Source: Gemmatimonadota bacterium | GTDB lineage: Bacteria; JBHIER01; G020348925 | Assembly: GCA_020348925.1 (NCBI GenBank) | Contig: CP070758.1 | Span: 2,295,782 to 2,359,781 of the forward strand | DNA length: 64,000 nt | Direction of reading: 5' to 3' | In this document: in pieces, positions 1 through 35,889 of the stretch | How the letters are laid out: each line of letters starts with the position of its first letter | How positions within the stretch are numbered: the first letter of the stretch is position 1 | The notes under the pieces: generated by a model | What the model saw: the letters and a program-made list of their open reading frames with translations, nothing else | What the model was told of the DNA's origin: nothing | Database searches by the model: none | Position numbers and translations under genes: made by a program

Positions 1-555
1 CGGAGCAGGACGTGGCCGGAGTGCTGCTGCGGTTCCGGTACGATCAGAAGAGTCTGACGGCCGGGGAGCCGGAGTTGACGGTTCGGTCGGAAGGGATGGA
101 TGTGAGCTCTCGGGTGATCGGGGATGAGCTGGTGGTCTTTGTCTCCAGCATGAGGGGAGAGGCTATCGAGGCCGGAGCCGGTTCGGTGGTGCGTGTGCCC
201 TTCACCCTGACCGGCGATGTGTCGGAGGTGGGGATCGAGGTGGTTGAGCCCGTGGTCTTCACCGTGGATGAGGCCATTGTTTTCGGTCATGGCTCGATGT
301 TCGTGGTCAAATCCGAGGATCTGGTGCCGGCCGAGTACGGTCTGGCCCAGAATTACCCGAATCCGTTCAACCCGGTGACGTCGATCGCCTACAGTCTGCC
401 TCAGGCGGCCAAGGTGAAGGTGTTTGTCTACAACACGTTGGGACAGGTTGTGGCCGAGCTGGTGGACGGCGATCAGGAGGCCGGGCATCATGTGGTCAAG
501 TGGGATGCCGGAGAGTTGGCCAGTGGTGTCTACTTCTACCGGATTGAAGCGAATG
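1..555 (+). repeat. Direct repeat copy A of 4917-5471
   Basis: Read with a constant offset of 4916 bases, positions 1-555 match 4917-5471 over almost every base without gaps; scattered substitutions are mostly in the first 120 and last 60 bases. The middle, encoding the end of the cohesin-like domain and the start of the sorting domain, is nearly identical. The repeat starts at or before the window edge, so its full length is unknown. It is coding in both copies. Confidence 0.9.
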
Positions 556-882: not shown

Positions 883-1039
883 GCAAAACATTAGTCAGAT
901 ACCTTGCTACAAGAGAGATCGAATAATTTGATTTCAATCCTTTTACACCGGATTCAAAAAAAAGTGGCGCACAATTCCAGAAACTTCTTATCAATTTTTT
1001 CACATTTCTTTTTATTCTAACACAAGGGAGGACATGGAA

Positions 1040-4000
1040 ATGAAAAGGTGCATATGGTTCATGGCGGCATTTCTGATTGTGCTTGCTCCGAGCATTTTCG
1101 CCCAGTCTGTCCTTTCGGAGTTACAGATTACGACGGACACGAATACGCAGTGGCGACCTTCCGTCTACGGCAATTATATAGTCTGGCAGGATCAGCGGAA
1201 CGGAAATGCCGACATCTACGGGTACAACCTGGCCACGAATACGGAGTTTCCCATCTGTATCAATACATTTAACCAGGAGCACCCTACCATCTACGGTGAC
1301 ATCGTGGTGTGGTACGACTGGAGGAATGTCAACGCAGACATCTACGGGTACGATCTGGCCACGAATACGGAATTCCCGATTTGTTTGAATCCGAATACCC
1401 AGCGACTACCCGTCATCTGGGAAAACTTCGTCGTCTGGAACGATTGGCGGAACGGCAACTGGGATATTTACGGATACGACCTTTCGACTGCTACCGAATT
1501 TCCCATCTGCACCAACGGGGCGCATCAATATTTCCCCAGAACCGGCGGTCGCTATGCGGTCTGGTGGGACGAGAGAAATGGCATCGGCAACTGGGATATC
1601 TACGGGTACGACCTGCTCACGAATACGGAATTCCCGATCTGTTTGGATCCGAATAACCAGGGATACCCTGCCGTGCACAATGATATTGTGGCCTGGATTG
1701 ACGACAGGGACGGCAACTGGAGTATTTACGGCTACAATGTTACCACGGCGACGGAGTTCCCCATCTGTACCAATACATCCGACCAGTTCCGTCCGTGGGT
1801 GTCGGATAATGTTGTGGTCTGGTTCGATCTGAGGAACGGGAATCAGGACATTTACGGTTATCAACTCTCCACGGGGACGGAGTTTCAGATCACGACGAAC
1901 ACGAGCGACCAGAGGCATCCCAAGATCCACTGCAACCGGGTGCTGTGGCACGATCGCCGGGACGGGGATTACAATATATACAGCGCTACCCTTGATATCA
2001 ATATGTGTGGGAGAGCCGTGGCCTGGGGAGATACGTGCATGAATCATGTGGGGCCTGACGATCCCGAGGATTTTCTGCTGGGAAGCAGCCCGCTGTACGC
2101 GGACCAGGATCTCTATGCGGTGGGTTTTTACAATTCGAAGGGACTCGCCATGGTGAACTCCATCTCCTTTCAGTGGTACGATCCGGGATCGGTGGATCTG
2201 TGGGTGTATCTGGGGCGTGAGGATTATTGTCCCCATTGTCAGCCGCTTTTGACGGGGGAGAGTCCCTTGGGTAGCATGTTAGGTCAGGTCGGGTCCGGTG
2301 ATTTTATTGGCAACTGGGAATGGGAGAAGGTGGATTTGGGTGATGGCCCGTGCATTCTGATCCCGGCCAAGCGTTGCTTCTATGTGGTGTGGAAGATGAA
2401 AGATGGAATGGATCGACCGAGGATACTGGGTGACGCCGAACATTCAGACAGTTTCTCGTGGATCTACAATGCGGAGTATGGATTGTGGAAGTGCTTTCCA
2501 GGATATGAATATATGGTGGAAGTGTGTTTGGACTATCAACCCGGGTGTATAGAAATTCAAGGGCCGGATATTACGTGGGATCATCCGTACCGCGGTGAGT
2601 ATCCGTGTGTCTGCGATGATTACGCAGTGCGGGCCGTTTTCCACAACGAGTGTGATGAGGGTGAGTTCGTGGATGTTGAATTTTACGAAGCGCCGTGGGG
2701 ATTATTCACTGTGCCGACAAGCGGGGGTGCTTTGTGCGTGGAGACGGCCTTTGTCCCCGGTGAGGGAAGGGATACGGTCGTGTGTGCCTGTGAGTATCAT
2801 CATCATTCTGAGGAGCACAACGGGTGGGCAAGGAACATTGTTGTGGCCTGGACGCGGGATATGGAATTTTGCTACGATACTCCAGGTCCAACATGGTATA
2901 TGAGCCGGCGATGTAGGATGACGATCTGGCCGGACGGGCCGTGGGACAAGGAGCCGGTGCGTTGGGGTTTGGCACCGATTACGATTCCCGTGTACAATGA
3001 GCATCCGGGGGAGATGCGCTTTGAGTTGCATATAGCTGATTTACCTTCAGAGTGGGATGCGGATTTGAGTTGGGATGACGAGATGTTGTCACCTGAAGAG
3101 ACTCGGAATGTTTTATTGACTGTTTGGCCTGATGGTGACGAGCCTGAGGGTCCGGTTGTCATCAGGGTCATGGCGTTTAAGTGCAACGGTGAGTGGGGCG
3201 AGGTGGAGATCGAGTTCATGCCCTATCCGGAGCATTTCTTCCTGGGTCCGGACGGTCGGCCGGTACAGCCGGTGCACGTGCAGGACATCCGCTGGAGCCC
3301 ACGCTATCCGTGCGAGAACAGGCCCTACGATGTCTCGGTGACGGTGGTCAACGACGGGCCCAACAGCGCCTATCCGAAGATCAGCTTCGGCCTGGCGCCG
3401 TGGGGTTTCTACTTTCCGCCCTTTGAGGAGATGGTCTACGACACGGTGTTGTGGGGCGGCGTCGGCGGTTTCGCCCGTCAGGTTGTGGCGCCCTATCATC
3501 ACAAGATCCCGTGGTTTATACACGAGGATCTGGAGTGCAACTACTATCAGCAGTATGCGCGGAACATCGTCATCGACTACCCTGTGATCCGCCGTCACTG
3601 TCCTGATCCTGATCTGTTACCCCTGGTATGGACGGTGGAGGATTCGACAACGGAGTATTTCAGGGACTGCGAGCGGTGGATGTGGCCGAAGCACCGGTGG
3701 GTGAACGGGGATACGACCTGGAGGCCGGTGATCGTTCCGGTACCCCTGTACAACGATGAGCCCTTTCCTGTTCTTTTCTGGATGTGGGTGGAGTCGGCAC
3801 CGGTTTCTCCCGGTGGGGAGATGTGGGAGACAACTTTTGATGGAGGAGATCCAACATTAGAGATAGATGGCGTTCTCCCGGGGGAAATGGAGGAGGTCAA
3901 TCTGTCCATTATCCCCAAGGGGGATGCTCCGCCAAGTGCGTTGCCGGACCATGTGGTGGTGGGTGCGGCGAAGTGGGATATACTCGGCGGATCCGGAAGC

Positions 4001-5509
4001 GAATACTTATCATGCTTCTATGACACCACGTTTATCGATATCAAGTTCATGCCGTACACGGGCATGTGTATCCGGGACACCAGCGGGATCAAGGTCGGCT
4101 ACAAGTATTCGGAGACGTGCAGTGGCGATGATACAATCTATCCGACCCTGCTGCCCGGCGATCAGGTGAGTATCGGCCTGATGCTGGACAACGAGTACCC
4201 GGTCTCGGCGGCGCAGATCGATCTGTGGTACGAGTCGGCTTACATGCGGGTGGTGGACGTTCAGACGACGACGCGGACGATCGGCTTTGAGCTGGTGCAC
4301 CGCGAGTTGGCGCCAGGAACGCACGAGATCGCGTTGTACTCGACGCCGACCCATCCGATAATTGTGCCCAATCCGCCCAGTTCGCATTGCGAGCTGCCGC
4401 CCGGGTACAATGATGTGGGTTTGTTGTCGATCGTGACGGTGACGTTTGAGATTTTGCCCGGAGCACCTGCGGGTGAGTGTGCGGACATCTGGTACGGGAC
4501 GGTGATCCTGGACGGGCTGCCGGACTGGGAGGGTCATCCCAAGGAGCCGCTGTGTTTGAAGTTTGAGGACAAGGGTCAGATCTGTTACGGTGGGTACATT
4601 GTGCCCAACAAGTGCGACGTGACGGGCTTATCCGCGGCACCGGACACCATGGTGACGTTGATGGATCTGTTGGCCATCTTGAACCACCTCACGGGGAAGA
4701 AGAGCCTGGGATCGTTGGATGACGTTTTTGATCCGACGACGTTGATCTGGGCGGCGGATGCCAATGGCGATGGGCTCGTCAACATCATCGATCTGATGAA
4801 GTGCATCAACCTGGCCGTGGGCGTTTGCGATCCGAAGGTGGCCGTGGCCGATGTGGCGGTGGGCGATGCGGTCGGAGTATCGGGTCGGACGGTGGCGGTG
4901 CCGGTGGATGTGACCTCGGAGCAGGATGTGGCCGGCCTGCTGCTGCGGTTCCGGTACGATCAGGAGATTCTGATGGCCGGTGAGGCCGAGCTGACGGACC
5001 GGGCAGCGGGCATGGATGTTGTCACCAAGGTGATCGGGGATGAGCTGGTGGTCTTCGTCTCCAGCATGAGGGGCGAGGCTATCGAGGCAGGTGCGGGTTC
5101 GGTGGTGCGTGTGCCCTTCACGCTGAGTGGCGATGTGTCGGAGGTGGGGATCGAGGTGGTTGAGCCCGTGGTCTTCACCGTGGATGAGGCCATTGTTTTC
5201 GGTCACGGTTCGATGTTCGTGGTCAAATCCGAGGATCTGGTGCCGGCCGAGTACGGTCTGGCCCAGAACTACCCGAATCCGTTCAACCCGGTGACGTCGA
5301 TCGCCTACAGTCTGCCTCAGGCGGCCAAGGTCAAGGGGTTTGTCTATAATACGTTGGGACAGGTTGTGGCCGAACTGGTGGACGGTGATCAGGAGGCCGG
5401 GCATCATGTGATCAAGTGGGATGCCCGGGATCTGGCCAGCGGTGTCTATTTTTACAGAATCGAAGCGAATGACTTTGCGGCCACGAGACGGATGGTGCTG
5501 ATGAAGTAA
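1040..5509 (+). CDS. Secreted modular surface protein: 7-repeat beta-propeller, Cys-rich stalk, cohesin-like, dockerin-like, T9SS-type sorting domain
   Basis: 1489 residues. Start: ATG at 1040 lies 8 bases after AGGGAGG (1025-1031); an ATG at 1034 is too close to it. A signal peptide ending SIFAQ covers residues 1-22. Residues ~28-325 hold seven ~43-residue repeats with the core VVW.D.RNGN.DIYGY...T.TEFPIC, consistent with a seven-bladed propeller. Residues ~325-1005 are cysteine-rich, with one ~180-residue segment and two copies of another unit (motifs CEYHHH, ARNIVV, CRMTIWP; second copy YARNIVIDY, CERWMWP). I do not recognise these domains. A cohesin-like sandwich follows (~1040-1185), then a dockerin-like module (~1190-1260; first loop degenerate, second loop ADANGDGLVNIIDL), a second cohesin-like module and the sorting domain (NYPNPFNP at ~1408). 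No catalytic motif was seen. The role is likely binding or structure at the cell surface. Confidence 0.9.
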   Translation: MKRCIWFMAAFLIVLAPSIFAQSVLSELQITTDTNTQWRPSVYGNYIVWQDQRNGNADIYGYNLATNTEFPICINTFNQEHPTIYGDIVVWYDWRNVNADIYGYDLATNTEFPICLNPNTQRLPVIWENFVVWNDWRNGNWDIYGYDLSTATEFPICTNGAHQYFPRTGGRYAVWWDERNGIGNWDIYGYDLLTNTEFPICLDPNNQGYPAVHNDIVAWIDDRDGNWSIYGYNVTTATEFPICTNTSDQFRPWVSDNVVVWFDLRNGNQDIYGYQLSTGTEFQITTNTSDQRHPKIHCNRVLWHDRRDGDYNIYSATLDINMCGRAVAWGDTCMNHVGPDDPEDFLLGSSPLYADQDLYAVGFYNSKGLAMVNSISFQWYDPGSVDLWVYLGREDYCPHCQPLLTGESPLGSMLGQVGSGDFIGNWEWEKVDLGDGPCILIPAKRCFYVVWKMKDGMDRPRILGDAEHSDSFSWIYNAEYGLWKCFPGYEYMVEVCLDYQPGCIEIQGPDITWDHPYRGEYPCVCDDYAVRAVFHNECDEGEFVDVEFYEAPWGLFTVPTSGGALCVETAFVPGEGRDTVVCACEYHHHSEEHNGWARNIVVAWTRDMEFCYDTPGPTWYMSRRCRMTIWPDGPWDKEPVRWGLAPITIPVYNEHPGEMRFELHIADLPSEWDADLSWDDEMLSPEETRNVLLTVWPDGDEPEGPVVIRVMAFKCNGEWGEVEIEFMPYPEHFFLGPDGRPVQPVHVQDIRWSPRYPCENRPYDVSVTVVNDGPNSAYPKISFGLAPWGFYFPPFEEMVYDTVLWGGVGGFARQVVAPYHHKIPWFIHEDLECNYYQQYARNIVIDYPVIRRHCPDPDLLPLVWTVEDSTTEYFRDCERWMWPKHRWVNGDTTWRPVIVPVPLYNDEPFPVLFWMWVESAPVSPGGEMWETTFDGGDPTLEIDGVLPGEMEEVNLSIIPKGDAPPSALPDHVVVGAAKWDILGGSGSEYLSCFYDTTFIDIKFMPYTGMCIRDTSGIKVGYKYSETCSGDDTIYPTLLPGDQVSIGLMLDNEYPVSAAQIDLWYESAYMRVVDVQTTTRTIGFELVHRELAPGTHEIALYSTPTHPIIVPNPPSSHCELPPGYNDVGLLSIVTVTFEILPGAPAGECADIWYGTVILDGLPDWEGHPKEPLCLKFEDKGQICYGGYIVPNKCDVTGLSAAPDTMVTLMDLLAILNHLTGKKSLGSLDDVFDPTTLIWAADANGDGLVNIIDLMKCINLAVGVCDPKVAVADVAVGDAVGVSGRTVAVPVDVTSEQDVAGLLLRFRYDQEILMAGEAELTDRAAGMDVVTKVIGDELVVFVSSMRGEAIEAGAGSVVRVPFTLSGDVSEVGIEVVEPVVFTVDEAIVFGHGSMFVVKSEDLVPAEYGLAQNYPNPFNPVTSIAYSLPQAAKVKGFVYNTLGQVVAELVDGDQEAGHHVIKWDARDLASGVYFYRIEANDFAATRRMVLMK
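4917..5471 (+). repeat. Direct repeat copy B of 1-555
   Basis: Internal to the 3' end of the propeller protein gene and near-identical to 1-555. It encodes the second cohesin-like module and most of the sorting domain. The high DNA identity, against much weaker similarity to the equivalent region of the 6288-10220 gene, points to recent duplication or gene conversion. Confidence 0.9.
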
Positions 5510-6149: not shown

Positions 6150-6287
6150 TTATGTATTGTAGGTGAAGATTATGCGAGTGTTCCTTTGAATCGAAAGTAT
6201 TGAGGAAGACGAACCTCTTTGGATAACGAATGCAGGCAAAACATGAAATTCATATGTTATCGATATTCCCCTCAAGGAGAGAAAAGT

Positions 6288-9200
6288 ATGAGTAGCAGAA
6301 GAAGAGAGAAGATCATGTGGGTCTCATCTCTGATAATATTTTTACTGGTTTTATTTGGTTCGATGAATTCTATTGCCCAGCCTTATGAGGTCTGGGTGGA
6401 CGATGATTATTGCGACGGCTGCGGGAACGACGGTCATACTTGGGGCTACGATGCCTTCGATAATATCCAGGATGGTATTGACGCTGTCTCCAGTAGTACC
6501 GTATGGGTACTACCGGGGACATATTCAGCAATGAACGATATCAATGCGAATGATGTGGAGGTGCTTTCAACCGGTGGACCCGAGGTGACCATCATCGATG
6601 GCGGAGGTTTGGCCAGCTACGGTTTTCAAATTAACACTGACGTGGATAACGTTCGAATAGATGGGTTTACTATTACGGATTGTACCAATGGTATCGTTGT
6701 AAATACATTGGCGGACGGGACGGAAATTCACAACAACTACATTGAAGGAAACAGTCTTTTTGGTGTGTCCACTGGTCCGCCCGTCAACGCTGAGAACAAC
6801 TGGTGGGGCTCCTGCACCGGCCCGTCACATTCAACAAATCCTCAAGGATTAGGGGATGCGGTTTCCGATAATGTCGATTTTGCCCCGTGGCTCTTCCCTT
6901 GCTCCTATGCATTCGGCGATACGTGTTTGAATTATATGCTCCCGGGCAATCCTGATGAATATCTGGAGAGCAGCGACAATCCGACGGAGGATTGGTGGGC
7001 GGTGGTATTTCGCAATCCCGGCGGAGCGGCCAAAATCACGTCCATCTCCTTCAGGTTCTTCGATGGGGGTGTCATCGATCTGTACGTCTTCACCTGCGGT
7101 GACCTGGTTCCTGAGGACGGTCTGTGCGAACCGGGTCAAATTTACGAGGTCTACGACTTTTTGGGAGATTCCCTCACCTCCGCCGTTCGCCACGCCTTTT
7201 TAGGAACCGGCCTGCACCCGATCTTCAATTGGGAGAAGGTCAATCTTGAGGACTCATGCATTACGGTCGGGCCGAAAAGCTGCTTTATCGTGGCCTGGCA
7301 CAAAGCGGTCAATGCGAATCCGCGGATCATGGCCGATGATACCGAAGGGGCGGGGACCCATAGCTGGATCTGGAACGATGAGCTGCAACAGTGGAAGTGT
7401 TTCCAGAACCTCGAATACTGTGTCGACGTCTGCCTCGACTACCAGCCCGGGTGCGTTACTCTGGAATGGCGGGATATCACGTGGGACCCGCTCCATCCTT
7501 GCGTGTGTAACGATTACAACGTCACGGCCGTTTTTTACAACGAATGCAACACCTCTCAGCAGATAGAAGTGGGATTCTACGAGGCCGACTGGGGTTTGTT
7601 CTTCCTACCGGGACCGAACCGGTGCAGCAGTCAACTGTACACCGTACCGGCGAAGGGGTACTTGGAAGTGCCTTGTAACTGTGAGTATCACCATGACACG
7701 GATCCGGGCAATTCCTGGTCCCGTAACGTTGCTGTGAGGTACAACCGCGACGTGGACTTCTGTTGGGATGAACCGGAAACCGTATATCGCTATGAACGGC
7801 GGTGCCGCCGGACCATCTGGCCGGACGCCGATTACAGCGGCGCGTACGGATCCGTACCCGTTCCCATAACGAACAATGAGGGCCAGCAAATGCAGTTCGA
7901 TGTTTCGGTCATCGACACCTCCGGCCCTACGGCCTGGAACTTTCGCTTTGCCAGTGGGAAGACGGATACGACGTTCTGGCTCGATCCACTGGCAGTGAAC
8001 ACACTGGACCTCATCGTTGAGGATACCCAACCGATAACTCAGCCTCTTGTTGTGTGGGTCCAGGCGTTGCAATGCAACGGCGAGGTGGGCGTGGCCGAGA
8101 TCGAGTTCATGCCTTACAGTGAACCGAGTGACCAGGAGTGGTTTCTCAGTATTGGGACTGCCCAGTGGGGGATTTTCTTTCCCACAACGGAGACGTATTA
8201 TGACGCTTGGCCAGGTCTTTATATGGATGAATTCATCAACCCTGATACTTCCTTTGTCGTTCCCATGTATCCATGTGAGGACTTAACGCCTTTTACGCCT
8301 TATTTCAGATGGGACTCCAATGGAACTGTGATACTCTATGCCCAAAAAGAATCGTTTTTGTGGCATCAACAGGGCCGGCAGTTCTATCGGAACGTGGTCC
8401 TTGATTTTCCAGAACTGAAACGCCACTGCTTTCCTGTGGATTCTGTGGCTACACTTTATTACCGGGACTGCCGGCGTATTATCTGGGCGGAGAGCCGGTG
8501 GCCTTGGGACGGGGAGATCGTTCCCATCCCTGTTTATAACGAAGAACCTTTCGAAGACACTATCGAACTTTCCGTGGAAACGGCCCCAACGGGATGGACC
8601 TATTTTCTGACTCAGACCAGTATGACCCTGGCACCGGCTCAGGCCGATACCGCGTTCCTGACGGTGATTCCGCAGGGGGCGGATCCACCTGCACCTCCGT
8701 ATCATGCGATCGCGGTACAGGCGGTGAAAGGGTTCTGCGACCGCGATACGGGATACCTGAATATTGAATTCATGCCCTATGCCTGTCTATGCATTCACGA
8801 TTATGCGGGCAAAGTGGTCGAAAATATCGGTATCGAAGATCCGACCCTTATGCCGGGAGATACGGTCCTGGTGAATCTCATGCTGGAGAACGATTATTAC
8901 GTCAGAGCTCTTCAGGTCGGCGTTGTCTACGATCCTTCGTATCTGGAGCCTGATGACGTGTTATTGACGGCGCGCACGGCGAATATGAGATTGGACTACA
9001 GCCTGTCCGCACCTCCCGGAACACTTTTTATCGCTATCGATACAACATGGGTTTCTCCAGACAGTATCGATCCCAGTCCCATGGGATACCTCTGTCAGGA
9101 GAAATCGTCTGAGGACTTTCTGAAGGTCGTCACCATCGATTTTAACATCATTGATAACGCCCCTCCCGGGGTTTGTTCAAACCTGTATCCGGTGAATGTC

Positions 9201-10220: not shown

Positions 10221-10410
10221 AGGATGCTTTTTCAACAGAGAGGGCCACAACAAAGGAGGTAGAGACCAAGGGTTTTTGGCTATCATTCACGAGTTCCAAT
10301 TCTTTTTTAAAATTCTAAAGATCTCACTTTTCGTAACGACAATTATGCAATCATTTTGAGATGTCAACATGCTCGTACAATATACAAGTTCAAGGACGAA
10401 GGAGGGACCA

Positions 10411-24879: not shown

Positions 24880-27800
24880 ATGACTAAGAGAGGAACTGCA
24901 TGCGTCATCGTACTCATTCTTGTGTTTGGAGTGCTCTCAATGGGAGAAGTATTTGCCCAAAGTCCTACTCCACTGCCTGAGATTCATCTGTCGACAAGCA
25001 GCCATGACTATGGCTTGGTGAAAGTGGGATACAGTCAGGACTGGGTGCTTCGGGTTGCGAATCGCGGTCTGGGACGATTGACGATTTTCGATATCACTTC
25101 TGATCATCCCGATTTTCAAATTTCAGATCCGGTAAGCTTTCCTCAATATGTCAACTATTCTGGGGGGAGGACTCCGGACAGTCTTTTCGTGACGGTTACG
25201 TTTACTCCTTCCACAGTCGGTGAAATCACCGGGCGACTGACCGTTCTGAGCAATGATGCTGATGAGGGGACTTTATACGTCTCCCTCGAAGGACAGGGGA
25301 CAGCTCCTGATATTAATATTTTTGAAGTGATCCACGATTTCAATGGGGTCGTTGTCGGCAGCGCTTTAGACTGGACGCTTGTCGTTCATAATACGGGCCC
25401 GGTCGATCTCGTTCTGACGGAAATTACTTCGAGTAATCCCAATTTTATAGTGGTCGTGCCGAATCATTTCCCGGAGTCCATTCCTCCCGGAGGTCGGATT
25501 GATGTTGTCATCAGTTTTGCTCCAATTTCGGGCGGTGTAAAAACAGGCAACCTCATTATCCGCAGTGATGATCCTGATGAGAGCGTTTATTATGTGTCAT
25601 TATTGGGAGAAGGATTGGCGGCGGATATTGATGTATCGACAATGGCCTATGATTTTGGCGAGCTTATGTCAGGGACGTCATCATCTTGGGAACTTACGGT
25701 CTATAATAGGGGAACATTGGATCTCATTATTAGCCAGGCGATTATTTCGCCCCCGATTTTTTCCGTCGTTTCGCCCCTCTTTCCTCAAACGGTGGAACCG
25801 AATGGAAGTCTGACTGTGGAAATCGTGGTCAGTCCGGAGGCAGTGGGGGACATCGACGGAACCTTGACGTTGCGCAGTAACGATCCTGACGAGAGTGAGC
25901 TCATTGTGTCATTGACAGGGACGGTGATTCCCAGATCACCTGATATTGTCCTGTCAGCCGTGAGTCATAACTTTGGCGATGTCCTTCTGTCCTCATCAGT
26001 GACGTGGGATTTTCAAATTCAAAATACAGGTCTGATCGATCTGACAGTGAATTCCATTCTCTCAGATCAGGCTGAGTTCTCCATCCTCACGCCTTCGTTT
26101 CCTCAGCAGGTTGCTCCGGACGAAAGCCTCAACGTCACGGTTGCTTTTACCCCTACAGCAGTGGGAGCTCGATCCGGAATTCTCACAGTGAGGAGTGATG
26201 ATCCTGACCAAGGAGTGCTGACGCTTTCAATTTTTGGTCGCGGTGTTGCTCCGAAAGTTGAGGTGTCGGCCAGGAGTTATGATTTTGGAAACGTCCTGGT
26301 GGGAAGCTCTTCCGCCTGGAATGTAACGCTCTCGAATGTCGGTACAGCGGATTTGGTCATTGAATCCGTTGTCTCTTCGCATTCCAATTTTCTTGTGGCC
26401 GATGCTCAATTTCCGAGAACGATCCCTCCAGGTGGCAGCATAATACAGACCGTTCTCTTTACACCGTCTTCGTTGGGTCTGATAGCGGGGAACCTGACCG
26501 TCAACACAAATGATCCCGATGAATCCGTGCTCCTCATCGCTCTGAATGGTATCGGTGTGAAACCCGACATTTATGTATCGGCGGACAGCCACGATTTTGG
26601 CGATGTGCACTTAGGCAGTTCCGGGTATTGGGATTTAGGGATTCAAAATTTGGGAACGGCACCCTTGACCGTAACCGGGCTCTTTTCGAGCGCCTCCTCA
26701 TTCACCGTCTCTGCTCCCTCCTTTCCCCAGACGGTGGATCCCGGGGAAATTCTTTCCGTGACAGTGGTCTTTACTCCGGCGAGTCTTGGAGAGATTACCG
26801 GGAACCTAACAATTATCAGCAACGACCCGGAGCAGGAGACGCTCGTGGTTCAAGTGCGCGGCACCGGCTCAGCACCTCCTGCGCCCCGCATTCACATATC
26901 CGAGAACACGCATGACTTTGACTTGGTAAACCTTGGGGCATCGACCGAATGGCGGGTTACGGTATATAATAGGGGCGACCTCGATCTCATCGTCAGCAGT
27001 GCGAGCTCAGACAATCCCGATTTTCAAGTTATCAGTCCACCAGTATTTCCCAACAGCATTGATCCCCTGTCCCACATGCACATCACAATTGCCTTTGCGC
27101 CTTCTGGAGCCGGCACGCGCACGGGCCACATCACCATCGGGAGCAACGATCCGGACAGAGCGCTTGTTTCACTCGCGGTTGCGGGATACGGCTCTGCTCC
27201 TGAAATTGAACTCTCCTCTTTGAGCCACGACTACGGAAAGGTGCTGCTTTTAAATCCTGAGCCTTGGACGATGAGGGTTACGAATCAGGGCTCGAAGGAT
27301 TTGCTCGTCACAGAAATTACCTCCGATCAGGAGGAGTTCATTATTGCATCAGCGGGCTTTCCCCGAACCTTGCCGCCGGGCACGAACCTGGATGTGGTGG
27401 TGACCTTTCTTCCCCAGGTGGAGGGGGAGAGAAGGGGCACAGTGACGGTGTTCAGCAACGATCCGAACGAACCGTTGCTCACAGTTCCGGTCGTCGGTGT
27501 CGGGGCGAGTTCCAAAATACACGTCTCGGAATTCGATCATGATTTTGGTTTGACCGCCGTGGGTGATACATCACTCTGGACCATTATTGTCACAAATGTG
27601 GGTGAGGAAGATCTTGTGGTCGACAACATCACATCCTCCCATCCGGATTTCATCGTTCTTTCTCCGCGCTTTCCACAGAGGATCACCTATTATTGTGGTA
27701 TTGAAGTGACTCTTGCTTTTGTCCCATCATCGGACGGTCAGAAGAGAGGACATCTGTCCGTGAACAACAATGATTCCTTTCAGCCCTGCGCACCGCTCGA

Positions 27801-30800
27801 GCTTGTTGGGATTGGTATTGCGCCGGACATTGCGTTCTCGACCCTCAGTCAGAACTTCGGGGATGTTCTTCTGGGGCAGTCTCGTTCAGGGAGATTTCGG
27901 ATCTCAAATGTGGGGACCATAGATCTGGTCGTGGACAGCATCGTCTCGAATCACACCGATTTCTCAATCACCTCGCCTGCCTTTCCGCAGGTGATAGGCC
28001 CGGGCGGTGAGATTGAAGTGACAACGCGATTTGCTCCCACCGCCCTGGGTGAGCGGACGGGTCATTTTACAGCGTACAGCGATGATTATGATGAGGCTCA
28101 ACAACTCATTGATGTGAGGGGTCGGGGCGTCTCCCCGGAGATCGAACTCTCGGCATGGAGCCACGACTTCGGGCAGATCTGGGCCGGCGATTGTACCCTC
28201 TGGTCCTTCACCATTACGAATCAGGGAAGCTTCGATCTCCTCATCTCCGATATTGCGTGCGCTCTTCCGGAATACGCGATCGTCGGCGTCACATTTCCCC
28301 AGAAGATCTACCCCCGCTGTGAGCTTGAGGTGCCCATCTCCTTCTGTCCCCAAGCCGTGGGTGTTGTGGGGTGCGACCTCGTCATCGAGACGAACCATCC
28401 CGATGTCGGCGACGTTACAATACAGTTGATGGGGGAGGGAGTACTGCCCGAAATTGCTGCCTCAGCCCTGGAGCATAATTTCGGAGGTCTGTCCCTCGGT
28501 GAATCGGCCGATTGGGTCCTGACGGTCTCGAACAGCGGGACCGCGCAGTTGACTGTTGCGAGTATCGTATTGACGAATACGGTCGATTTTGCGATACCCG
28601 AATACACCTTTCCTGTCCTCCTTGATCCTCAGGGATCGTTGGACGTTCCCATTGTCTTTGAACCACAAACTTCGACCCACAAGGAATCCGATCTTATTAT
28701 TACGAGCGATGATCCGTTCAATCCTGTCGTGAGCGTTCATCTGAGAGGAAAGGGATTGGTCAAGGATATTCTTCTTTCTGACAAAAGTCATGACTTCGGC
28801 TCCGTCGCTGTTGGCCAACGATCTGATTGGTCCTTCACCATTACGAATCTTGGACAACTTCCTCTTGACATAACCGAGGTTATTCCGAGTCTTTCCGATT
28901 TTAGGGTGACTGCCCCACTTTTTCCCCACACTATTGAGGGTGGCAGAAACGTCGAGGTGACCGTTTCCTTCGTTCCGACCGATATCGGGATTCGATCGGG
29001 GACTCTTGAAATTCAGAGCACGGACCCTGACGAGGGATCGATGATTGTGACCCTGGTTGGTGTGGGGTTCGCTCCTGATATCGGGCTGTCCGCTTACAAC
29101 TATGATTTTGGCCAGGTGTTGGTTGGAGAGTGTGTGCAGTGGCCGATGCGGGTCAATAATACCGGAACCTTCGACCTTGAGGTTTCAAGCATAACCCTGA
29201 ATCATCCGGATTTCAATGTTCAGGGTCCAACCCTACCTTTTTCCATTGGACCGGGCAACAGCCAGGAGTTGATCGTAACCTACTGTCCGTCTGCCGCCGA
29301 AACCGAAGAATGCAGTCTCAGCATGTGTGTCGATGGTCTCCTTGATCGATGTGTGTCCGTTGATCTCAGGGGGACTGGTATTGTACCGGATATTGCTTTC
29401 TCAGCACCGAGTCATAATTATGGTCCTGTCTATGTCGGGGGGACCTCCAATTGGGTCCTCATGATTTTGAACGTGGGAACCGCTGATCTCACCGTGTCCG
29501 GTGTCGTTTCCGAGGGAGGTGCATTCGTGGTCACGGCTCCCACTTTTCCCCGGACGATCCCGCCGGAGGGATCGGTGGGTGTCGTGGTGGCCTTTACGCC
29601 TGAGGAGGTTGGGGCCGTCTCGGGGAATCTTGTCGTGAGCAGTGATGATCCTAACGAATCGGAGGTGACGATCCCCCTGGAAGGGTCGGGGGTTCTTCCG
29701 CAGTTCATTGTTTCGGACACCTTCCATGATTTCGGAAACGTTATCACCGGAGATTCGGCGACATGGTCATTCACCGTCTCGAATGCTGGCGGCGCGCGAA
29801 TGACGATTTCTGCGATTGCGTCCGACAATGCCGATTTCAGTATTACGGGGCCTGCTTTCCCACGAACTTTAGAACCTGATGGGACGGTGGATGTCGGCGT
29901 ACTCTTTGCCCCGCGCTCCTCGGGAGAAAAGTCCGGGATTCTGTCGATAACGACGGACGATCCCAGTGCACCGGTCTTCGCCATAGAATTGACGGGTAAG
30001 GCTGTCGTCACCGGTTTCCAGTTGTCTGAGAACCAGCATGATTACGGCAAGGTTCTCGTGGGCCAGACCTCAGCGTGGACAATGATTCTTTCAAACGGCG
30101 GCCGGACGGAGTTGATGGTTCTGAGCATAGGGTCAGACCTGCCCGAATACGTGGTCATATCCGATGAGTTTCCCCTGGCTATCGCCCCCCAGGAGAGTAT
30201 CGAGGTGGGCGTCGATTTTACGCCTTGGGTCATGGGAATCTTCGACGGTACCCTGACCATAGAGATATTGGATTTCGGCGACGATCCGCCGACGGTCCAG
30301 CTGACAGGGGAGGGCGTCCAGCAGGATATCGAGGTGCTTGAGCTCTCCCATGATTACGGCAACGTGGTGGTCGGTGATTCCTCTTCCTGGTTTTTAACGA
30401 TAAATAACGCGGGGACCGCGGACCTGATCATTGACACCATCTACACGGATCATGATGATTTTCAAGTGGACGGTTTGACATTCCCCATCGTTCTTCCCGC
30501 CGACAGACTGCCCCCTGTCCCGGACATCCCCGTGACCTTCAAACCTTCATCGGCCGTGGCCGCCGAAGGGCACCTGACTATTTTGAGTGATGATCCTGAT
30601 GAGGGTGAGATTGTGGTGACTCTCACAGGATACGGTGTCGACGCCAATGTCTATGCGTCGGATTCGTATCATGATTTCGGGGACGTCCAACTCAGAGGAT
30701 CGGAGGAGTGGACCTTCCGACTGTACAATATCGGGAAAAGTGATCTGCGTGTTGAACATGTCCTCTCCGGATGCGAGGCCTTTACGGTGACGGACCCTGA

Positions 30801-33800
30801 ATTTCCCCAGACACTTGGGAGTGGAACACAGCTGGATATCACTGTGACCTTCACCCCTTTGACGACCGACCTTGTGACCTGCACGCTGAATGTCCTCACC
30901 GACGATCCTGACGAGGGCGTTTTGAATGTCGTCGTTACCGGCCGCGGGGTCGGACGGGGGATCGCCGTCACGGTCAGAGGGATCGGATTCGGGCCGGTCC
31001 GCATCGGCAGTTCGGTGGTCAGGACATTGACCGTGTATAATAATGGGTTGCTCGAGGCAACGGTGGATGATATTTTGTCGACCCATACCGATTTTCAGAT
31101 TGTTGCTCCGCTCTTTCCGTACACCATCGGACCGCAGGACAGTGTCGACGTGACGATTGCCTTCACGCCCTCCGAACCGGGTTTGGCTGAGGGTTCCCTG
31201 AACATCGGGAGCAACGATCCGGATCAACCGCTTCTGTCCGTCACGGTACACGGTCAGGGCATCACGCCTGAGATCAACCTCTCGGCTGAGCATCACGACT
31301 TCGGAAAGATTAATGTCGGCAGTTTCTCCAACTGGGTGTTCATGATTCAAAACAGAGGGACGGCCGATCTGGCGGTCAGCTCCGTCCTGTCCGATAATCC
31401 GCAATTGACCGTTGTGTCACCGAACTTCCCCAGGACGATTCCCACGGACGACAGCTGTGGCGTCGTGGTCCGCTTTGCACCTGTGGATATGGGGCCCGCA
31501 TCGGGCACGGTGACGATCATCAGCGATGATCTCGACGAGAGCACGCTCACTGTCGCATTACGGGGTGAAGGTGTTCTTCCGGATATTGCCTTGTCAGCGT
31601 TGCATCACGATTACGGTGAGGTCGAAGCAGGTGATACGTCCCTCTGGGTGCTGACCGTTTCCAACGTGGGAAGCGCGAATCTTGTGGTGGAGAGCATGTT
31701 CAGTGATCACTCGGATTTTGCTGTTCTCTCACCGAGTTTCCCCCAGGTCATAGAACCGGAAGCACATGTAATGGTAACAGTGGCCTTTCGCCCCACGTCG
31801 GGTCAAGAACGGAGTGGTCGTCTGTCCGTGTACAGTGATGATCCCGACGAATCGGTGCTGGAAGTGGGCCTCACCGGACGGGGCATTGCCTCGGACGTGC
31901 ATGTCGATGTTCGGGATCATGATTTCGGTGGCGTTGTGGTGGGTGATTCGACGTCGTGGATGCTGCCCCTGCGTAACATCGGCCGGGCATCATTGACCGT
32001 TCACAGTGTGAACACGGAGGGGAAGGATTTTAATGTCGTCTCTCCAATCTTTCCGCAGACGGTTGCACCCGGACAGCATCTTGACGTTTCAATACAATTT
32101 CAGCCTTCGGACTTGGGACCTATCGAGGGAACCGTAACGGTTCTGAGCAGTGATCTCTCTGAACCGACTGTCATAATCCCTGTCCGAGGCGAAGGATTCA
32201 TTGAGCCTGTTTTGCAGATCGTAGACGGTTTTGGGGATCCCGGGAGTGCTGGAAATAAAGTATCCGTCCACCTCTATACGCCTCTGGACATCAGTGCTCT
32301 TGAGTTTGGCCTCACATACGATTCGCAGGTTTTGACGATTACTGACGCGCAGCTGGGTGCTGATGCCAGCCACATGGGTATCTTTGATATCGACTTTCCC
32401 CTTGCGAACCGGGTCTTCATTCACATTGGGGATGCGGATGGGGGGGTGATCAGTCCGCGTTCAGGTACTGTAACTGAGTTCACCTTTCAGGTCGCCGCCG
32501 AAGCACCAATGGGACAACTCCCGTTGGTGCTCACAGATGTGGTCCTCTACGAAGGCGACGGTACCCCGGTGCCGGTTGTCCCTCAAGACGGAGTGTTTAC
32601 TGTTACTCTTCCGGATATCGTCGTACCTCACCGGGTTTACGATTATGGCGATGTCTCTGTGAATCGCCCTGAGGATTGGCCGTGTCCTATGTGGAACTCA
32701 GGGACGAAGGATCTTATTATCAGCGGAATAACGGTGGATCATATCGATTTCTATACGATCGAACCGAGCTTTCCCTGTACCTTAGCGGTCGCCGAGAGCA
32801 GTCTTGTCATTTTCAGATTTGCACCCTCTGCAATCGGCCCAATTTCGGCCTCAGCAATCGTAGAGAGCAATGATCCTGACGAAGGGGCAGTCACAATTTC
32901 TCTCGGTGGCGTGGGGATCAAACCCGATATCTGCATGGGAGAAATTATTCACGATTTTGGTGACGTCCTGGCGGGTACCTCGTTCACCTGGCCGGCTCTC
33001 ATAGCAAACTTGGGCAAGGGAGCATTGACGGTTGACAGTATTTTTACGGTCGGATCCGATTTTTCTGTGGAAGCGCTTACCTATCCGTTTGTTGTCATGG
33101 AGAGCGAAAGTATCTTTGTCGGTGTGACCTTTACTCCGGCTCTGGCTGGGGCGATCCGCGGAAGTCTGGTGGTTGTGAGCAACGATCCCGATGAGGAACG
33201 GTTTGTCCTTCCGCTTTGGGGTCGCGGTGTTGCTCCTGACATCGATCTGTCCGCTGTGAGCCACGATTTCGGGGAAGTTGATGTCGGTCAGATAGCCGAT
33301 GAGGACTTTCTCATTTACAACAGGGGAACAGCAGAGTTGACAATAGACTCTTTGAAAGCTCAGCCAGACGCGTTTACGTTCTTTGGGCCGGATTTCCCCG
33401 AGACGGTAGCTCCTGGCGACAGTTTCGCACTGTCGGTCTCCTTTGCTCCGACCTTCATGGGGGAGATCTCAGGCGATCTGACTCTTTTCAGCGACGATCC
33501 CGATGAAGGAGAGTTCATGGTCTTTCTCAGTGGCGTCGGCGCAGCGCCAAAGATTGAATCCTCGGCCACAAGCTATATCTTCGGACGGGTGAAGTTGGGT
33601 GAATCTGAGACGTGGGAATTTCTTATTTCGAATGTGGGAACCCGGGACCTCATTATCGAATCTGTTGAGCCTGATACCTCAGATTATGCGGTGACCGTCG
33701 AGGAGGAGTTTCCCCTTATCCTTGAGCCGGGCGAGGATATTGTGGTGGGTGTGATCTTCCAGCCCTCGGCCGTGGGGATGATCAGCGGCCGATTGATCAT

Positions 33801-35889
33801 ACGGTCCAACGATCCCGAGCAGGCCAGTCTCCATGTGACGCTGCTGGGGCATGGTGCCGAGCCGGATATTGATCTGTCCGCGACGCTTCTCGATTTCATG
33901 AGCGTTGCCCTGGGCAACGCATCCGAACGGACGCTGACGGTTCGAAATATTGGAGAGGCGGACCTTGTCCTGACGGATATCCATACAGATAATGGCGATT
34001 TTACCGTTTCAGGACTGACGCTTCCCGTGACCGTTGAGAAGCGGGACAGCATGACAGTGACCGTGACCTTCACACCGACGACTGTGGGTGCCATCCAGGG
34101 CAGCCTGATTGTTGCCAGTGATGATCCGGATGAACCGTTGATCTCCGTGGATCTGCTGGGGGAAGGCGTGCCCCCGGCCCGCTTAACCCTTGGGAACGGA
34201 CACGGGACACCTGAAAGCGAGGACAATCCCGTCTTTCTCTTTCTGGACAACACGGTACCGGTGGCATCGGTTGAGCTCCTCGTCAATTTTGATCCGGACG
34301 TACTGTCCCTGAATACGGTCCATACAACAGAGCGGCTTGGCCAAATGAGTCATTTCGAATGGGATGAAGGGGAGGTGGATGGTACGATCCACGTTCTTAT
34401 TTCGGATGTGAGTGATCATATCATTGAACCGGGAACAGGATCGATTATCCGACTTGGCTTCGATGTGACTGCCGACGCTGAGTTTGGCACGACGCCGTTG
34501 ACACTGTCCGACGTGACCCTCTACGGTGCCTTTGATTCCGAGGTTCTCACCGGGACGGAGGATGGGTTCTTCACCGTTGGAACGTCCTACGTGTACAACT
34601 TCGGTGATGTCCCGCTCGGACAGAAATCATCAATTACGCTCAATTATTCTTTCCCGGATCAGGATTGCGACTGGATCGTTGGGAAAATCGAGTGTAATAA
34701 TCCGGACTTCACCATTGAATCGCCTTGTTCCTGTCCGCTTGTCGTGTCCTCGTCCCTATTGGGTCAATTGGAGCTTACGATCGGCTTTTCCCCTTCACAG
34801 ATGGAAGAGGAGTGGGGGCTCATCACCCTGCGTCTTATTGCCCCTCATGAGCAAACAATTCTTCTGCCCATCGTCGGTCGGGGAGTAACCGCGGTGAGTG
34901 AAAACTGGGCGGTTGACGTCGTGTGCCTCAGCAGTGACGTCACTCTCGAAGAGGATGAAAGGAGAAAGGAACTGACATTTGGGGTTGATTCGGCGGGATC
35001 GGACGGTTTGGATGGCGGATTGGACGTGGCGTTGCCCCCTCCGAGTCCTGGCGGTGAGGATTTCTCCGCCTATTTTCCCCTGGAGTTGGAATTTGGGACA
35101 CTGCGGCTGCAAAGAGATATAAGAAGTTCAGCCCGAAAGAACATCGAATGGACCATTGAAACTGAGGGAACGGGCGGGACCATGTCCTGGGATCCCTCAG
35201 CCTTACCGGAAGGCGAGTTCACGTTGAACGGCAGTGTTGATATGAAAAGTATCGGTGAGGTTTTTTTCGTGGCAAACGAGACGGTGACCATTCAATATGC
35301 GAGCCCACAATCCGCGATCCAGTTGCAGTCTCTCTCCGTCCAATTTGGGGACGGCTGGGCGACCGTGCTGTGGGAGACTGCCTATGAGGAAAACGTGGCC
35401 GGTTATAACCTGTACAGAGTGGGTGAGGCTGGCGTCCGGCCTTCAGCGGAGCATAGACTGAACACATCCATCATCACCGGATCGCACGCGTACTCCTTCG
35501 TCGATAAAACAGCCGATCCCGGTGAGATATATTACTACTGGGTCGAAGTTGTGGGCTTCGATGGATCGACGATGTTCTTAGGGAGCGTTTCGGGTCGCGT
35601 GGCTGTTCCGAAGAACTTCGTCCTGTCCCAGAACTATCCGAATCCCTTCAATCCCGAGACCCACATCGATTTTACTTTGCACTCCCGGGAGAATGTCTCC
35701 CTTGTCATTTACAACGCCCTCGGCCAGCAGATTCGTGCTCTTGTCCAAGGTCCTCAATCCCCCGGCACGTACACCATCACCTGGGACGGTTGCGATGACG
35801 ATGGAGTCCTCGTTCCCAGCGGCATGTTCTTCTATCGCATCACCGTCGGCACCATCTCAGAGACGAAGAAGATGGTGATGTTGAAATAG
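24880..35889 (+). CDS. Giant secreted protein: 28 Hydin/ASH Ig-like repeats, two cohesin-like modules, FN3-like, T9SS-type sorting domain
   Basis: 3669 residues, the largest product here. Start: ATG at 24880, behind AAAGGAGA (24866-24873). A signal peptide ends EVFAQ (~27). Twenty-three ASH units (~24985-32200) of the SHDFG...W subtype precede a cohesin-like module (~32203-32610; ALEFGLTYDSQVLTI). Five more units follow to ~34170, then a second cohesin-like module (~34171-34580; VELLVNFDPDVLSL), a divergent unit (YVYNFGDVPLG), an unrecognised acidic segment, a FN3-like domain (VLWETAYEENVAGYNLYR) and the sorting domain (NYPNPFNPETHIDFTL). Most units close with S.DPDE. Units 11 (~28136-28440) and 14 (~29074-29385) each hold five cysteines, unlike their neighbours. 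In contrast to its upstream paralogue, the cohesin-like modules sit near the C-terminus, i.e. close to the cell if the C-terminus anchors. Structural or scaffold role inferred. Confidence 0.92.
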   Translation: MTKRGTACVIVLILVFGVLSMGEVFAQSPTPLPEIHLSTSSHDYGLVKVGYSQDWVLRVANRGLGRLTIFDITSDHPDFQISDPVSFPQYVNYSGGRTPDSLFVTVTFTPSTVGEITGRLTVLSNDADEGTLYVSLEGQGTAPDINIFEVIHDFNGVVVGSALDWTLVVHNTGPVDLVLTEITSSNPNFIVVVPNHFPESIPPGGRIDVVISFAPISGGVKTGNLIIRSDDPDESVYYVSLLGEGLAADIDVSTMAYDFGELMSGTSSSWELTVYNRGTLDLIISQAIISPPIFSVVSPLFPQTVEPNGSLTVEIVVSPEAVGDIDGTLTLRSNDPDESELIVSLTGTVIPRSPDIVLSAVSHNFGDVLLSSSVTWDFQIQNTGLIDLTVNSILSDQAEFSILTPSFPQQVAPDESLNVTVAFTPTAVGARSGILTVRSDDPDQGVLTLSIFGRGVAPKVEVSARSYDFGNVLVGSSSAWNVTLSNVGTADLVIESVVSSHSNFLVADAQFPRTIPPGGSIIQTVLFTPSSLGLIAGNLTVNTNDPDESVLLIALNGIGVKPDIYVSADSHDFGDVHLGSSGYWDLGIQNLGTAPLTVTGLFSSASSFTVSAPSFPQTVDPGEILSVTVVFTPASLGEITGNLTIISNDPEQETLVVQVRGTGSAPPAPRIHISENTHDFDLVNLGASTEWRVTVYNRGDLDLIVSSASSDNPDFQVISPPVFPNSIDPLSHMHITIAFAPSGAGTRTGHITIGSNDPDRALVSLAVAGYGSAPEIELSSLSHDYGKVLLLNPEPWTMRVTNQGSKDLLVTEITSDQEEFIIASAGFPRTLPPGTNLDVVVTFLPQVEGERRGTVTVFSNDPNEPLLTVPVVGVGASSKIHVSEFDHDFGLTAVGDTSLWTIIVTNVGEEDLVVDNITSSHPDFIVLSPRFPQRITYYCGIEVTLAFVPSSDGQKRGHLSVNNNDSFQPCAPLELVGIGIAPDIAFSTLSQNFGDVLLGQSRSGRFRISNVGTIDLVVDSIVSNHTDFSITSPAFPQVIGPGGEIEVTTRFAPTALGERTGHFTAYSDDYDEAQQLIDVRGRGVSPEIELSAWSHDFGQIWAGDCTLWSFTITNQGSFDLLISDIACALPEYAIVGVTFPQKIYPRCELEVPISFCPQAVGVVGCDLVIETNHPDVGDVTIQLMGEGVLPEIAASALEHNFGGLSLGESADWVLTVSNSGTAQLTVASIVLTNTVDFAIPEYTFPVLLDPQGSLDVPIVFEPQTSTHKESDLIITSDDPFNPVVSVHLRGKGLVKDILLSDKSHDFGSVAVGQRSDWSFTITNLGQLPLDITEVIPSLSDFRVTAPLFPHTIEGGRNVEVTVSFVPTDIGIRSGTLEIQSTDPDEGSMIVTLVGVGFAPDIGLSAYNYDFGQVLVGECVQWPMRVNNTGTFDLEVSSITLNHPDFNVQGPTLPFSIGPGNSQELIVTYCPSAAETEECSLSMCVDGLLDRCVSVDLRGTGIVPDIAFSAPSHNYGPVYVGGTSNWVLMILNVGTADLTVSGVVSEGGAFVVTAPTFPRTIPPEGSVGVVVAFTPEEVGAVSGNLVVSSDDPNESEVTIPLEGSGVLPQFIVSDTFHDFGNVITGDSATWSFTVSNAGGARMTISAIASDNADFSITGPAFPRTLEPDGTVDVGVLFAPRSSGEKSGILSITTDDPSAPVFAIELTGKAVVTGFQLSENQHDYGKVLVGQTSAWTMILSNGGRTELMVLSIGSDLPEYVVISDEFPLAIAPQESIEVGVDFTPWVMGIFDGTLTIEILDFGDDPPTVQLTGEGVQQDIEVLELSHDYGNVVVGDSSSWFLTINNAGTADLIIDTIYTDHDDFQVDGLTFPIVLPADRLPPVPDIPVTFKPSSAVAAEGHLTILSDDPDEGEIVVTLTGYGVDANVYASDSYHDFGDVQLRGSEEWTFRLYNIGKSDLRVEHVLSGCEAFTVTDPEFPQTLGSGTQLDITVTFTPLTTDLVTCTLNVLTDDPDEGVLNVVVTGRGVGRGIAVTVRGIGFGPVRIGSSVVRTLTVYNNGLLEATVDDILSTHTDFQIVAPLFPYTIGPQDSVDVTIAFTPSEPGLAEGSLNIGSNDPDQPLLSVTVHGQGITPEINLSAEHHDFGKINVGSFSNWVFMIQNRGTADLAVSSVLSDNPQLTVVSPNFPRTIPTDDSCGVVVRFAPVDMGPASGTVTIISDDLDESTLTVALRGEGVLPDIALSALHHDYGEVEAGDTSLWVLTVSNVGSANLVVESMFSDHSDFAVLSPSFPQVIEPEAHVMVTVAFRPTSGQERSGRLSVYSDDPDESVLEVGLTGRGIASDVHVDVRDHDFGGVVVGDSTSWMLPLRNIGRASLTVHSVNTEGKDFNVVSPIFPQTVAPGQHLDVSIQFQPSDLGPIEGTVTVLSSDLSEPTVIIPVRGEGFIEPVLQIVDGFGDPGSAGNKVSVHLYTPLDISALEFGLTYDSQVLTITDAQLGADASHMGIFDIDFPLANRVFIHIGDADGGVISPRSGTVTEFTFQVAAEAPMGQLPLVLTDVVLYEGDGTPVPVVPQDGVFTVTLPDIVVPHRVYDYGDVSVNRPEDWPCPMWNSGTKDLIISGITVDHIDFYTIEPSFPCTLAVAESSLVIFRFAPSAIGPISASAIVESNDPDEGAVTISLGGVGIKPDICMGEIIHDFGDVLAGTSFTWPALIANLGKGALTVDSIFTVGSDFSVEALTYPFVVMESESIFVGVTFTPALAGAIRGSLVVVSNDPDEERFVLPLWGRGVAPDIDLSAVSHDFGEVDVGQIADEDFLIYNRGTAELTIDSLKAQPDAFTFFGPDFPETVAPGDSFALSVSFAPTFMGEISGDLTLFSDDPDEGEFMVFLSGVGAAPKIESSATSYIFGRVKLGESETWEFLISNVGTRDLIIESVEPDTSDYAVTVEEEFPLILEPGEDIVVGVIFQPSAVGMISGRLIIRSNDPEQASLHVTLLGHGAEPDIDLSATLLDFMSVALGNASERTLTVRNIGEADLVLTDIHTDNGDFTVSGLTLPVTVEKRDSMTVTVTFTPTTVGAIQGSLIVASDDPDEPLISVDLLGEGVPPARLTLGNGHGTPESEDNPVFLFLDNTVPVASVELLVNFDPDVLSLNTVHTTERLGQMSHFEWDEGEVDGTIHVLISDVSDHIIEPGTGSIIRLGFDVTADAEFGTTPLTLSDVTLYGAFDSEVLTGTEDGFFTVGTSYVYNFGDVPLGQKSSITLNYSFPDQDCDWIVGKIECNNPDFTIESPCSCPLVVSSSLLGQLELTIGFSPSQMEEEWGLITLRLIAPHEQTILLPIVGRGVTAVSENWAVDVVCLSSDVTLEEDERRKELTFGVDSAGSDGLDGGLDVALPPPSPGGEDFSAYFPLELEFGTLRLQRDIRSSARKNIEWTIETEGTGGTMSWDPSALPEGEFTLNGSVDMKSIGEVFFVANETVTIQYASPQSAIQLQSLSVQFGDGWATVLWETAYEENVAGYNLYRVGEAGVRPSAEHRLNTSIITGSHAYSFVDKTADPGEIYYYWVEVVGFDGSTMFLGSVSGRVAVPKNFVLSQNYPNPFNPETHIDFTLHSRENVSLVIYNALGQQIRALVQGPQSPGTYTITWDGCDDDGVLVPSGMFFYRITVGTISETKKMVMLK
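24985..34170 (+). repeat. 28 tandem ~315-bp coding repeats, interrupted once by a cohesin-like module
   Basis: Units 1-23 span about 24985-32200 and units 24-28 about 32611-34170; a cohesin-like module of ~410 bp lies between. Twenty-four of 28 have Trp at the strand position before the V.N.G motif; units 10, 20, 26 and 28 do not. Each unit is a separate diverged sequence. Confidence 0.88.

Follow-up and report, generated by a model that had tools for sequence, protein, structure and literature searches.

A candidate T9SS-anchored, non-cellulolytic cohesin-dockerin surface assembly encoded across a Gemmatimonadota genome

The single-scaffold, 5.04 Mb genome of a Gemmatimonadota bacterium encodes cohesin and dockerin modules in large numbers, with at least 243 distinct dockerins and at least 150 distinct cohesins located so far. 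We regard it as fairly probable, from the architectures of the encoded proteins, that these modules form a genome-wide, non-cellulolytic, cellulosome-like assembly at the cell surface, anchored through the type IX secretion system (T9SS), and that the proteins described below are a part of it.

Results

Architecture of the proteins in the window

The window is the stretch of 64,000 nucleotides at positions 2295782-2359781 of the genome. Seven of its proteins, P1 to P7, were translated and scanned with Pfam and NCBIfam, and an N-terminal signal peptide was recognized by eye in all seven (7/7). The features are listed by position in the window (CTD, C-terminal T9SS sorting domain).

3-617, + strand: truncated open reading frame, its 5' end missing, with an assembly gap immediately before the window; pre-CTD cohesin at ~1-269 and T9SS type A sorting domain at 327-614 (TIGR04183, 41.1 bits)
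1034-5509, + strand: P1; signal peptide, seven-repeat beta-propeller, mid-domains, cohesin, beta-dockerin, cohesin, T9SS CTD
4139-4519, + strand: P1 cohesin 1, of the beta pre-dockerin clade (77 bits with the in-genome profile)
4607-4822, + strand: P1 dockerin, beta subtype; loop 1 with a 5-aa insertion, loop 2 DANGDGLVNIID
4853-5185, + strand: P1 cohesin 2, of the pre-CTD clade (Pfam Cohesin, 33.6 bits)
5243-5506, + strand: P1 T9SS sorting domain (TIGR04183, 37.1 bits)
6219-10220, + strand: P2; weak beta-helix head, mid-domains shared with P1, cohesin (8826-9212), beta-dockerin (9312-9506), cohesin (9543-9881), CTD (9939-10217)
10369-15429, + strand: P3; VWA head, five DUF11 repeats, beta-like dockerin (14545-14721), pre-CTD cohesin (14755-15087), CTD (15148-15426)
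15598-24771, + strand: P4, a giant; N-terminal scaffold-clade cohesin (15790-16134), ~25 ASH/HYDIN Ig-like repeats, fn3-like segment, CTD (24490-24768); no dockerin
24823-35889, + strand: P5, a giant; two scaffold-clade cohesins (32212-32559 and 34183-34530) set within a run of ~27 ASH/HYDIN Ig-like repeats, CTD (35608-35886); no dockerin
53342-54814, + strand: P6; cohesin (53441-53794), ASH-like domain, cohesin (54170-54517), C-terminal alpha-like dockerin (54569-54745, + strand); no CTD
54811-55509, + strand: P7; cohesin (54931-55266), C-terminal alpha-like dockerin (55315-55500); no CTD

An earlier sequence-only reading of the window had seen a dockerin, a cohesin and a sorting domain in that order in proteins at 1040, 6288 and 10411, one and two cohesins and no dockerin in giants at 15673 and 24880, and both modules with no sorting domain in a pair at 53360 and 54811; P1-P3, P4/P5 and P6/P7 have these architectures. 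That reading had missed the second cohesins of P1 and P2, which lie before the dockerin, the cohesin-CTD fragment at 1-617 and the ASH/HYDIN repeats of the rods, of which P4 and P5 carry 24-27 each. Among the heads it had named, the propeller of P1 (TIGR04275, 297 bits) and the VWA domain of P3, accompanied by DUF11, were recovered, and the beta-helix of P2 was weak (E=0.005). The conserved mid-domains are common to P1 and P2, the signal peptide of P2 points to a start no earlier than 6288, and the start of P7 overlaps the stop codon of P6 by ATGA. The truncated frame is a near copy of the P1 tail (91% DNA identity over 555 nt).

The T9SS sorting domain TIGR04183 scored above its cut-off in P1, P2, P3 and the truncated frame. 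The tails of P4 and P5 are of the same CTD type, with weak matches to Por_Secre_tail and 109-114 bits with a profile built from the genome. No sorting domain was found in P6 or P7 by Pfam, NCBIfam or the in-genome CTD profile.

Other features of the window are of note. TIGR04275, the best match of the P1 head (window 1034-2030), is a repeat family named for Methanosarcina; separately, Methanosarcina acetivorans was the only control genome positive for cohesin. A 1059-aa protein at 41221-44400 carries an Omp85-type barrel domain at its C-terminus, together with a PD40 propeller and a peptidase-MA-like domain. An ordinary envelope and lipid housekeeping run occupies 44567-52953 on the - strand, with an M50 site-2 protease, DXP reductoisomerase, a CdsA-type cytidylyltransferase, a TPR protein, undecaprenyl-PP synthase, glycerol-3-phosphate acyltransferase, an EngA-type GTPase and a radical SAM DUF512 protein.

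Identity of the modules

The assignment of the modules to cohesin (PF00963) and dockerin (PF00404) was borne out by Pfam for the cohesins of P1, P4 and P5 and the dockerin of P3; the others scored below the cut-offs, and P6 had no Pfam cohesin match. In whole proteins (cohesin cut-off, 24.1 bits), P1 (33.6 bits) and P5 (42.0 bits) were above, and P2 (18.3), P3 (15.0) and P7 (15.8) were below; P4 scored 20.3 bits in the whole protein and 28.0 bits as an isolated module. By module, those above are P1 cohesin 2, the P4 cohesin and one P5 cohesin, and those below are P2 cohesin 1 and the cohesins of P3 and P7. For dockerins (cut-off 22.9 bits), P3 scored 29.8 bits, with P2 (21.6), P1 (19.7), P7 (17.9) and P6 (14.6) below.

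Because the Pfam cut-offs were passed by some of the window modules only, we built cohesin, dockerin and CTD profiles from the genome itself. Against these, all window cohesins scored 49-98 bits and all five window dockerins 53-72 bits, and no reversed decoy exceeded 12 bits. The calcium ligands are readable in every loop of the five dockerins. Of the dockerin modules found with the in-genome profile, 114/120 matched PF00404; 91/137 isolated cohesin modules matched PF00963 at E<=1e-3, the sole Pfam family that the cohesins matched. A search of the PDB with the cohesin profile gave 6kgc as the best match (7.5e-15) and the Archaeoglobus module 2xdh at 1.3e-13, and the chains retrieved were cohesins wherever the name was informative. 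The dockerin profile retrieved dockerins, including those of the solved complexes 2ccl and 1ohz.

AlphaFold models of the P1 tail and of P7 were made from shallow, window-only alignments of 3-4 sequences, with the dockerin parts at low confidence. The P1 tail model (3 sequences) had a mean pLDDT of 56, with cohesin 2 at ~75-80. Its top Foldseek matches were cohesins, among them the cohesin dyad 3l8q (E 1.4e-10), and target-normalised TM-scores against single cohesins were 0.74-0.77 (2jh2), at moderate model confidence. The dockerin helices were placed at low confidence in both models, and that of P7 was too poor for use. The two kinds of module also occur together: in the first half of the genome sample described below, 13/15 cohesin proteins carried a dockerin (hypergeometric ~1e-13, with 700 genes assumed).

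As judged from sequence and predicted fold, these results confirm that the window modules are genuine cohesins and dockerins and not generic look-alike Ig spacers. Chance Ig-like matches were ruled out by Pfam, the PDB profile search and the fold search.

Scale across the genome

We examined a systematic sample of eighty 20-kb stretches (1.6 Mb, 32% of the genome), which held 107 dockerins, 57 cohesins and 81 T9SS tails. Extrapolated from this sample, the genome totals are ~337 dockerins (bootstrap 252-428), ~179 cohesins (107-261) and ~255 T9SS tails (186-327), figures that may be too high by a few where contig ends are duplicated at gaps. Pfam alone gave 81 cohesin matches in the genome at E<=0.001, mostly above the cut-off; a first look with Pfam dockerin returned 525 candidates, of which 150 were scored and 148 passed. 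Among comparison genomes related at the domain level only, with no same-phylum relative among them, the best of 240 had 9 cohesin matches at E<=1e-8 versus 14 in the present genome, and the best of 40 had 11 at E<=1e-3 versus 74. Published records give 222 dockerin proteins for Ruminococcus flavefaciens FD-1 (PMC2930009), and 78 cohesins and >200 dockerin ORFs for Bacteroides (Pseudobacteroides) cellulosolvens (PMC5590126); our cohesin counts are not strictly comparable with published ones, because Pfam is less sensitive than the in-genome profiles.

At least one dockerin was present in 47/80 sampled stretches. The window is not special within its genome, and a local gene cluster, as had been proposed for the assembly, is rejected on this distribution.

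Architectures and cargo

The sampled frames comprise 59 with a lone dockerin, 22 with a dockerin and CTD without cohesin, 36 with a CTD only and 33 with cohesins. Among the cohesin frames of the full sample, 25/33 also carry a dockerin and 23/33 a CTD. Two counts speak against an assembly: a dockerin of its own on most cohesin proteins also fits pairing in cis, and the 41/106 dockerin proteins of the sample that have a CTD as well would need no docking for anchoring.

Multi-cohesin arrays are of two sorts: one has a CTD, the other a terminal dockerin and nothing else recognizable. Locus L069 has both: a scaffold with six cohesins, ASH repeats and a CTD (4337235-4341008) is followed on the same strand, in an operon-like run, by two genes for three cohesins and a dockerin with no other recognizable domain. 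P6 and P7 are proteins of this second kind. The giants P4 and P5, which had been pictured as long rods, do look like scaffolds, with the six-cohesin protein of L069 as a relative.

Lone dockerins stand at the extreme C-terminus of exported proteins, in the place of a T9SS tail; in 49/58 closed lone-dockerin frames the module ends <=25 aa from the C-terminus. A simple signal-peptide rule was satisfied by 33/40 lone-dockerin and 37/41 cohesin-CTD frames, versus 199/534 control frames. SprA is encoded in the genome (153 bits), and T9SS is thus present. Pfam annotation of 40 lone-dockerin proteins gave M14 (4), C25 (4), M1 (2), S41 (2), PAD (2), beta-lactamase-fold (2) and DUF3160 (2) domains, and also FG-GAP, laminin-G-like, PKD and TSP3 parts. 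Individual C25, M14, PAD and DUF3160 proteins were seen to end in dockerins. The 11 C25 genes with a near-complete domain have a dockerin tail in seven cases, a CTD in two and neither in one, and one is cut by a gap; one of the two with a CTD may be the PorU sortase.

Two loci illustrate these tails. At L081 (2634-17538) three consecutive C25 gingipain-like genes, in frames of 1592-1728 aa, each have an alpha dockerin at the end. At L032 two adjoining DUF3160 paralogues (8011-10533 and 10573-13197; 46% identical) have one a CTD and the other a dockerin, a natural swap of tails. The tails also recur as a cassette of dockerin, cohesin and CTD, with 81-94% DNA identity between proteins whose heads share ~72% or less. 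Its copies lie at window 4452-5509 and 1-617, L046 8924-9981, L044 8659-10054 and L070 7751-8559, and runs of N (assembly gaps or masked stretches) stand beside copies. The sequences of the cassettes point to recent recombination or gene conversion.

The genome has cohesin scaffoldins together with dockerin-bearing enzymes, as cellulosomes do. We rejected the name of a cellulosome because GH9 and CBM3 were not found in the genome, while positive controls for both were detected; GH48 also gave no match, though no positive control matched either. The earlier description of the assembly as non-cellulolytic agrees with this outcome.

Dockerin subtypes and cohesin clades

The dockerins fall into three recognizable sets, for which we use trends and not exact subtype counts, since the simple regular-expression rule misassigns a few. 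The alpha set, with repeats like LDVLGIVNVILG, is the lone C-terminal and adaptor type. The beta set has a KCIN/SCIN motif (IDLMKCIN) and is found in P1 and P2, with a close variant in P3; in the sample, beta dockerins occur only directly before a pre-CTD cohesin. The gamma set has a SYDAS...LR signature. Much of the first calcium loop is missing from gamma dockerins (L009, L028, L042, L067, L068), which lie ~60-80 aa from flanking cohesins, many of these with a GLITEWG-like motif; the gamma set is possibly a separate docking specificity. Differences between the subtypes were noted around loop positions 10-11 and in the helices, and a literature search for published cohesin-dockerin interface residues found none.

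The cohesins form parallel clades. One of 55 members (support 0.97) holds those of P4 and P5, the first of P6 and those adjoining alpha dockerins; one of 22 (0.97), the pre-CTD clade, unites the final cohesin of each of P1, P2 and P3; one of seven (0.98) includes the first cohesin of P1 and that of P2; and one of 39 (0.81) is mostly of gamma context. Since within-gene co-duplication can yield such covariation, the parallel subtypes suggest the pairing and do not demonstrate it. The proposal that the dockerins of P1-P3 dock onto the giants is probably wrong, because subtype and clade differ: these are beta dockerins, whereas the P4/P5 cohesins belong to the clade of alpha dockerins. The likelier clients of the giants, by these relationships, are lone-dockerin proteins encoded elsewhere.

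Discussion

We propose an assembly in which the ASH rods with 1-6 cohesins (P4, P5 and the L069 scaffold) would be the anchoring scaffolds, exported and fixed by their C-terminal T9SS sorting domains. Adaptor scaffolds (P6, P7 and the two L069 proteins with three cohesins and a dockerin) would link to these anchors and multiply the docking sites. Exported proteins with a lone alpha dockerin would then dock onto the scaffold cohesins, by which proteins that have no CTD of their own would be located at the surface. Many of these docking proteins are peptidases (C25 gingipain-like, M14, M1 and S41), peptidyl-arginine deiminase, or lectin-like and FG-GAP proteins. Such an assembly would probably serve to capture and break down protein-rich matter at the surface.

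P1, P2 and P3 would constitute a second, beta subsystem of the form (cohesin)-dockerin-cohesin-CTD, the modules of which probably pair with one another, whether in cis or between neighbours, and not with the giants. For P1, P2, P3 and their relatives it is quite possible, although we do not favour it, that the dockerin binds the cohesin of the same chain as an intramolecular clasp or fold-stabiliser beside the CTD. This would concern the beta subset only and is compatible with the proposed assembly of the alpha set. The short, fixed linker between dockerin and cohesin (11 aa in the P1 family) would suit a clasp, as would the confinement of beta dockerins to the position directly before a pre-CTD cohesin. 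The cassette also travels as one piece, P1 and L046 being 94% identical over 1058 nt with heads at ~72%; a connector acting in trans would, however, show the same co-movement, and the low-confidence model of the P1 tail does not place the dockerin.

In another alternative no docking occurs at all: the cohesin-like modules would be plain Ig-like spacers, as the earlier reading had also considered, with the dockerins as calcium-stabilised caps or linkers. The cohesins below the Pfam cut-off are in keeping with it, as are the near-constant distance of ~20 aa between pre-CTD cohesins and the CTD, which resembles a structural collar, and the heavy use of Ig-like units that the accompanying ASH, DUF11 and fn3-like spacers betray. 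Yet lone dockerins at the extreme C-terminus of enzymes would make poor spacers, some proteins consist almost wholly of cohesins plus one dockerin, the two modules are strongly associated, and the families matched are specifically those of binding cohesins and dockerins. We consider this alternative unlikely. That the C-terminal dockerin is a sorting or export tag for another route, and not a ligand of cohesins, is very improbable: it would suit the replacement of the CTD on homologous cargo (the DUF3160 neighbours and the C25 peptidases), but 22 sampled frames have a dockerin followed by a CTD without cohesin, the ~180 cohesins of the genome would have no ligands, and the dockerin profile retrieves modules of solved cohesin-dockerin complexes.

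The proposed assembly extends a known, experimentally untested kind, in view of the precedents of Ca. Stygibacter and the ANME archaea. For Ca. Stygibacter (Cloacimonadota), a non-cellulolytic cellulosome-like complex was inferred in 2021 from MAGs, with one 3,755-aa scaffoldin bearing CBM2/CBM3 and with GH18/GH57 enzymes (PMC8542988). The two have in common a T9SS-type CTD on a large cohesin scaffoldin and C-terminal dockerins on enzymes, there C25 gingipain-like and S8/S53 peptidases. The present genome differs in its hundreds of modules, ASH rods, several dockerin subtypes and no CBM3 found, in the union of cohesin and dockerin in one CTD-anchored chain, and in the adaptors with three cohesins and a dockerin. 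B. cellulosolvens likewise has a very large, multi-type cohesin and dockerin complement with anchoring and adaptor scaffoldins (PMC5590126), but it is cellulolytic and clostridial, whereas here we find T9SS anchoring, peptidase-rich cargo and no GH9 or CBM3. In R. flavefaciens FD-1 dockerin sequence groups are also linked to function and peptidases are numerous (PMC2930009), but that organism is a rumen fibre degrader, with a cellulosome built on carbohydrate-active enzymes.

The closest noncellulosomal solved modules by profile and fold are those of Archaeoglobus fulgidus (2xdh) and Clostridium perfringens NagJ (2jh2), which are isolated modules from other organisms with other anchoring. We know of no T9SS in ANME archaea. 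Those archaea resemble the present case in being non-cellulolytic and in proteins that combine a dockerin with up to five cohesins (PMC9012536); they differ in being archaeal and in a cargo that includes ABC-transporter substrate-binding proteins (PMC9012536). New here, as read from the encoded architectures, are the scale, the swap of dockerin and CTD on gingipain-type enzymes, the ASH-rod scaffolds and the chain of cohesin, dockerin and CTD.

It is conceivable, though unlikely, that dockerin enzymes with no T9SS tail bind in the periplasm to the cohesins of CTD scaffolds and that the loaded complex is then exported by T9SS. If so, the C-terminal dockerin would replace the secretion signal itself, and the system would be a protein-degrading equivalent of the cellulosome in a Gram-negative cell, of greater size than the published systems compared.

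If the modules bind, this would be the largest cohesin-dockerin system among those compared, attached through T9SS and with peptidases in the place of cellulases. Hundreds of docking pairs would be added to those known, and the question would arise of how gingipain-type enzymes without a T9SS tail get to the surface. The plan of the cellulosome would then be a general principle of surface assembly in Gram-negative bacteria.
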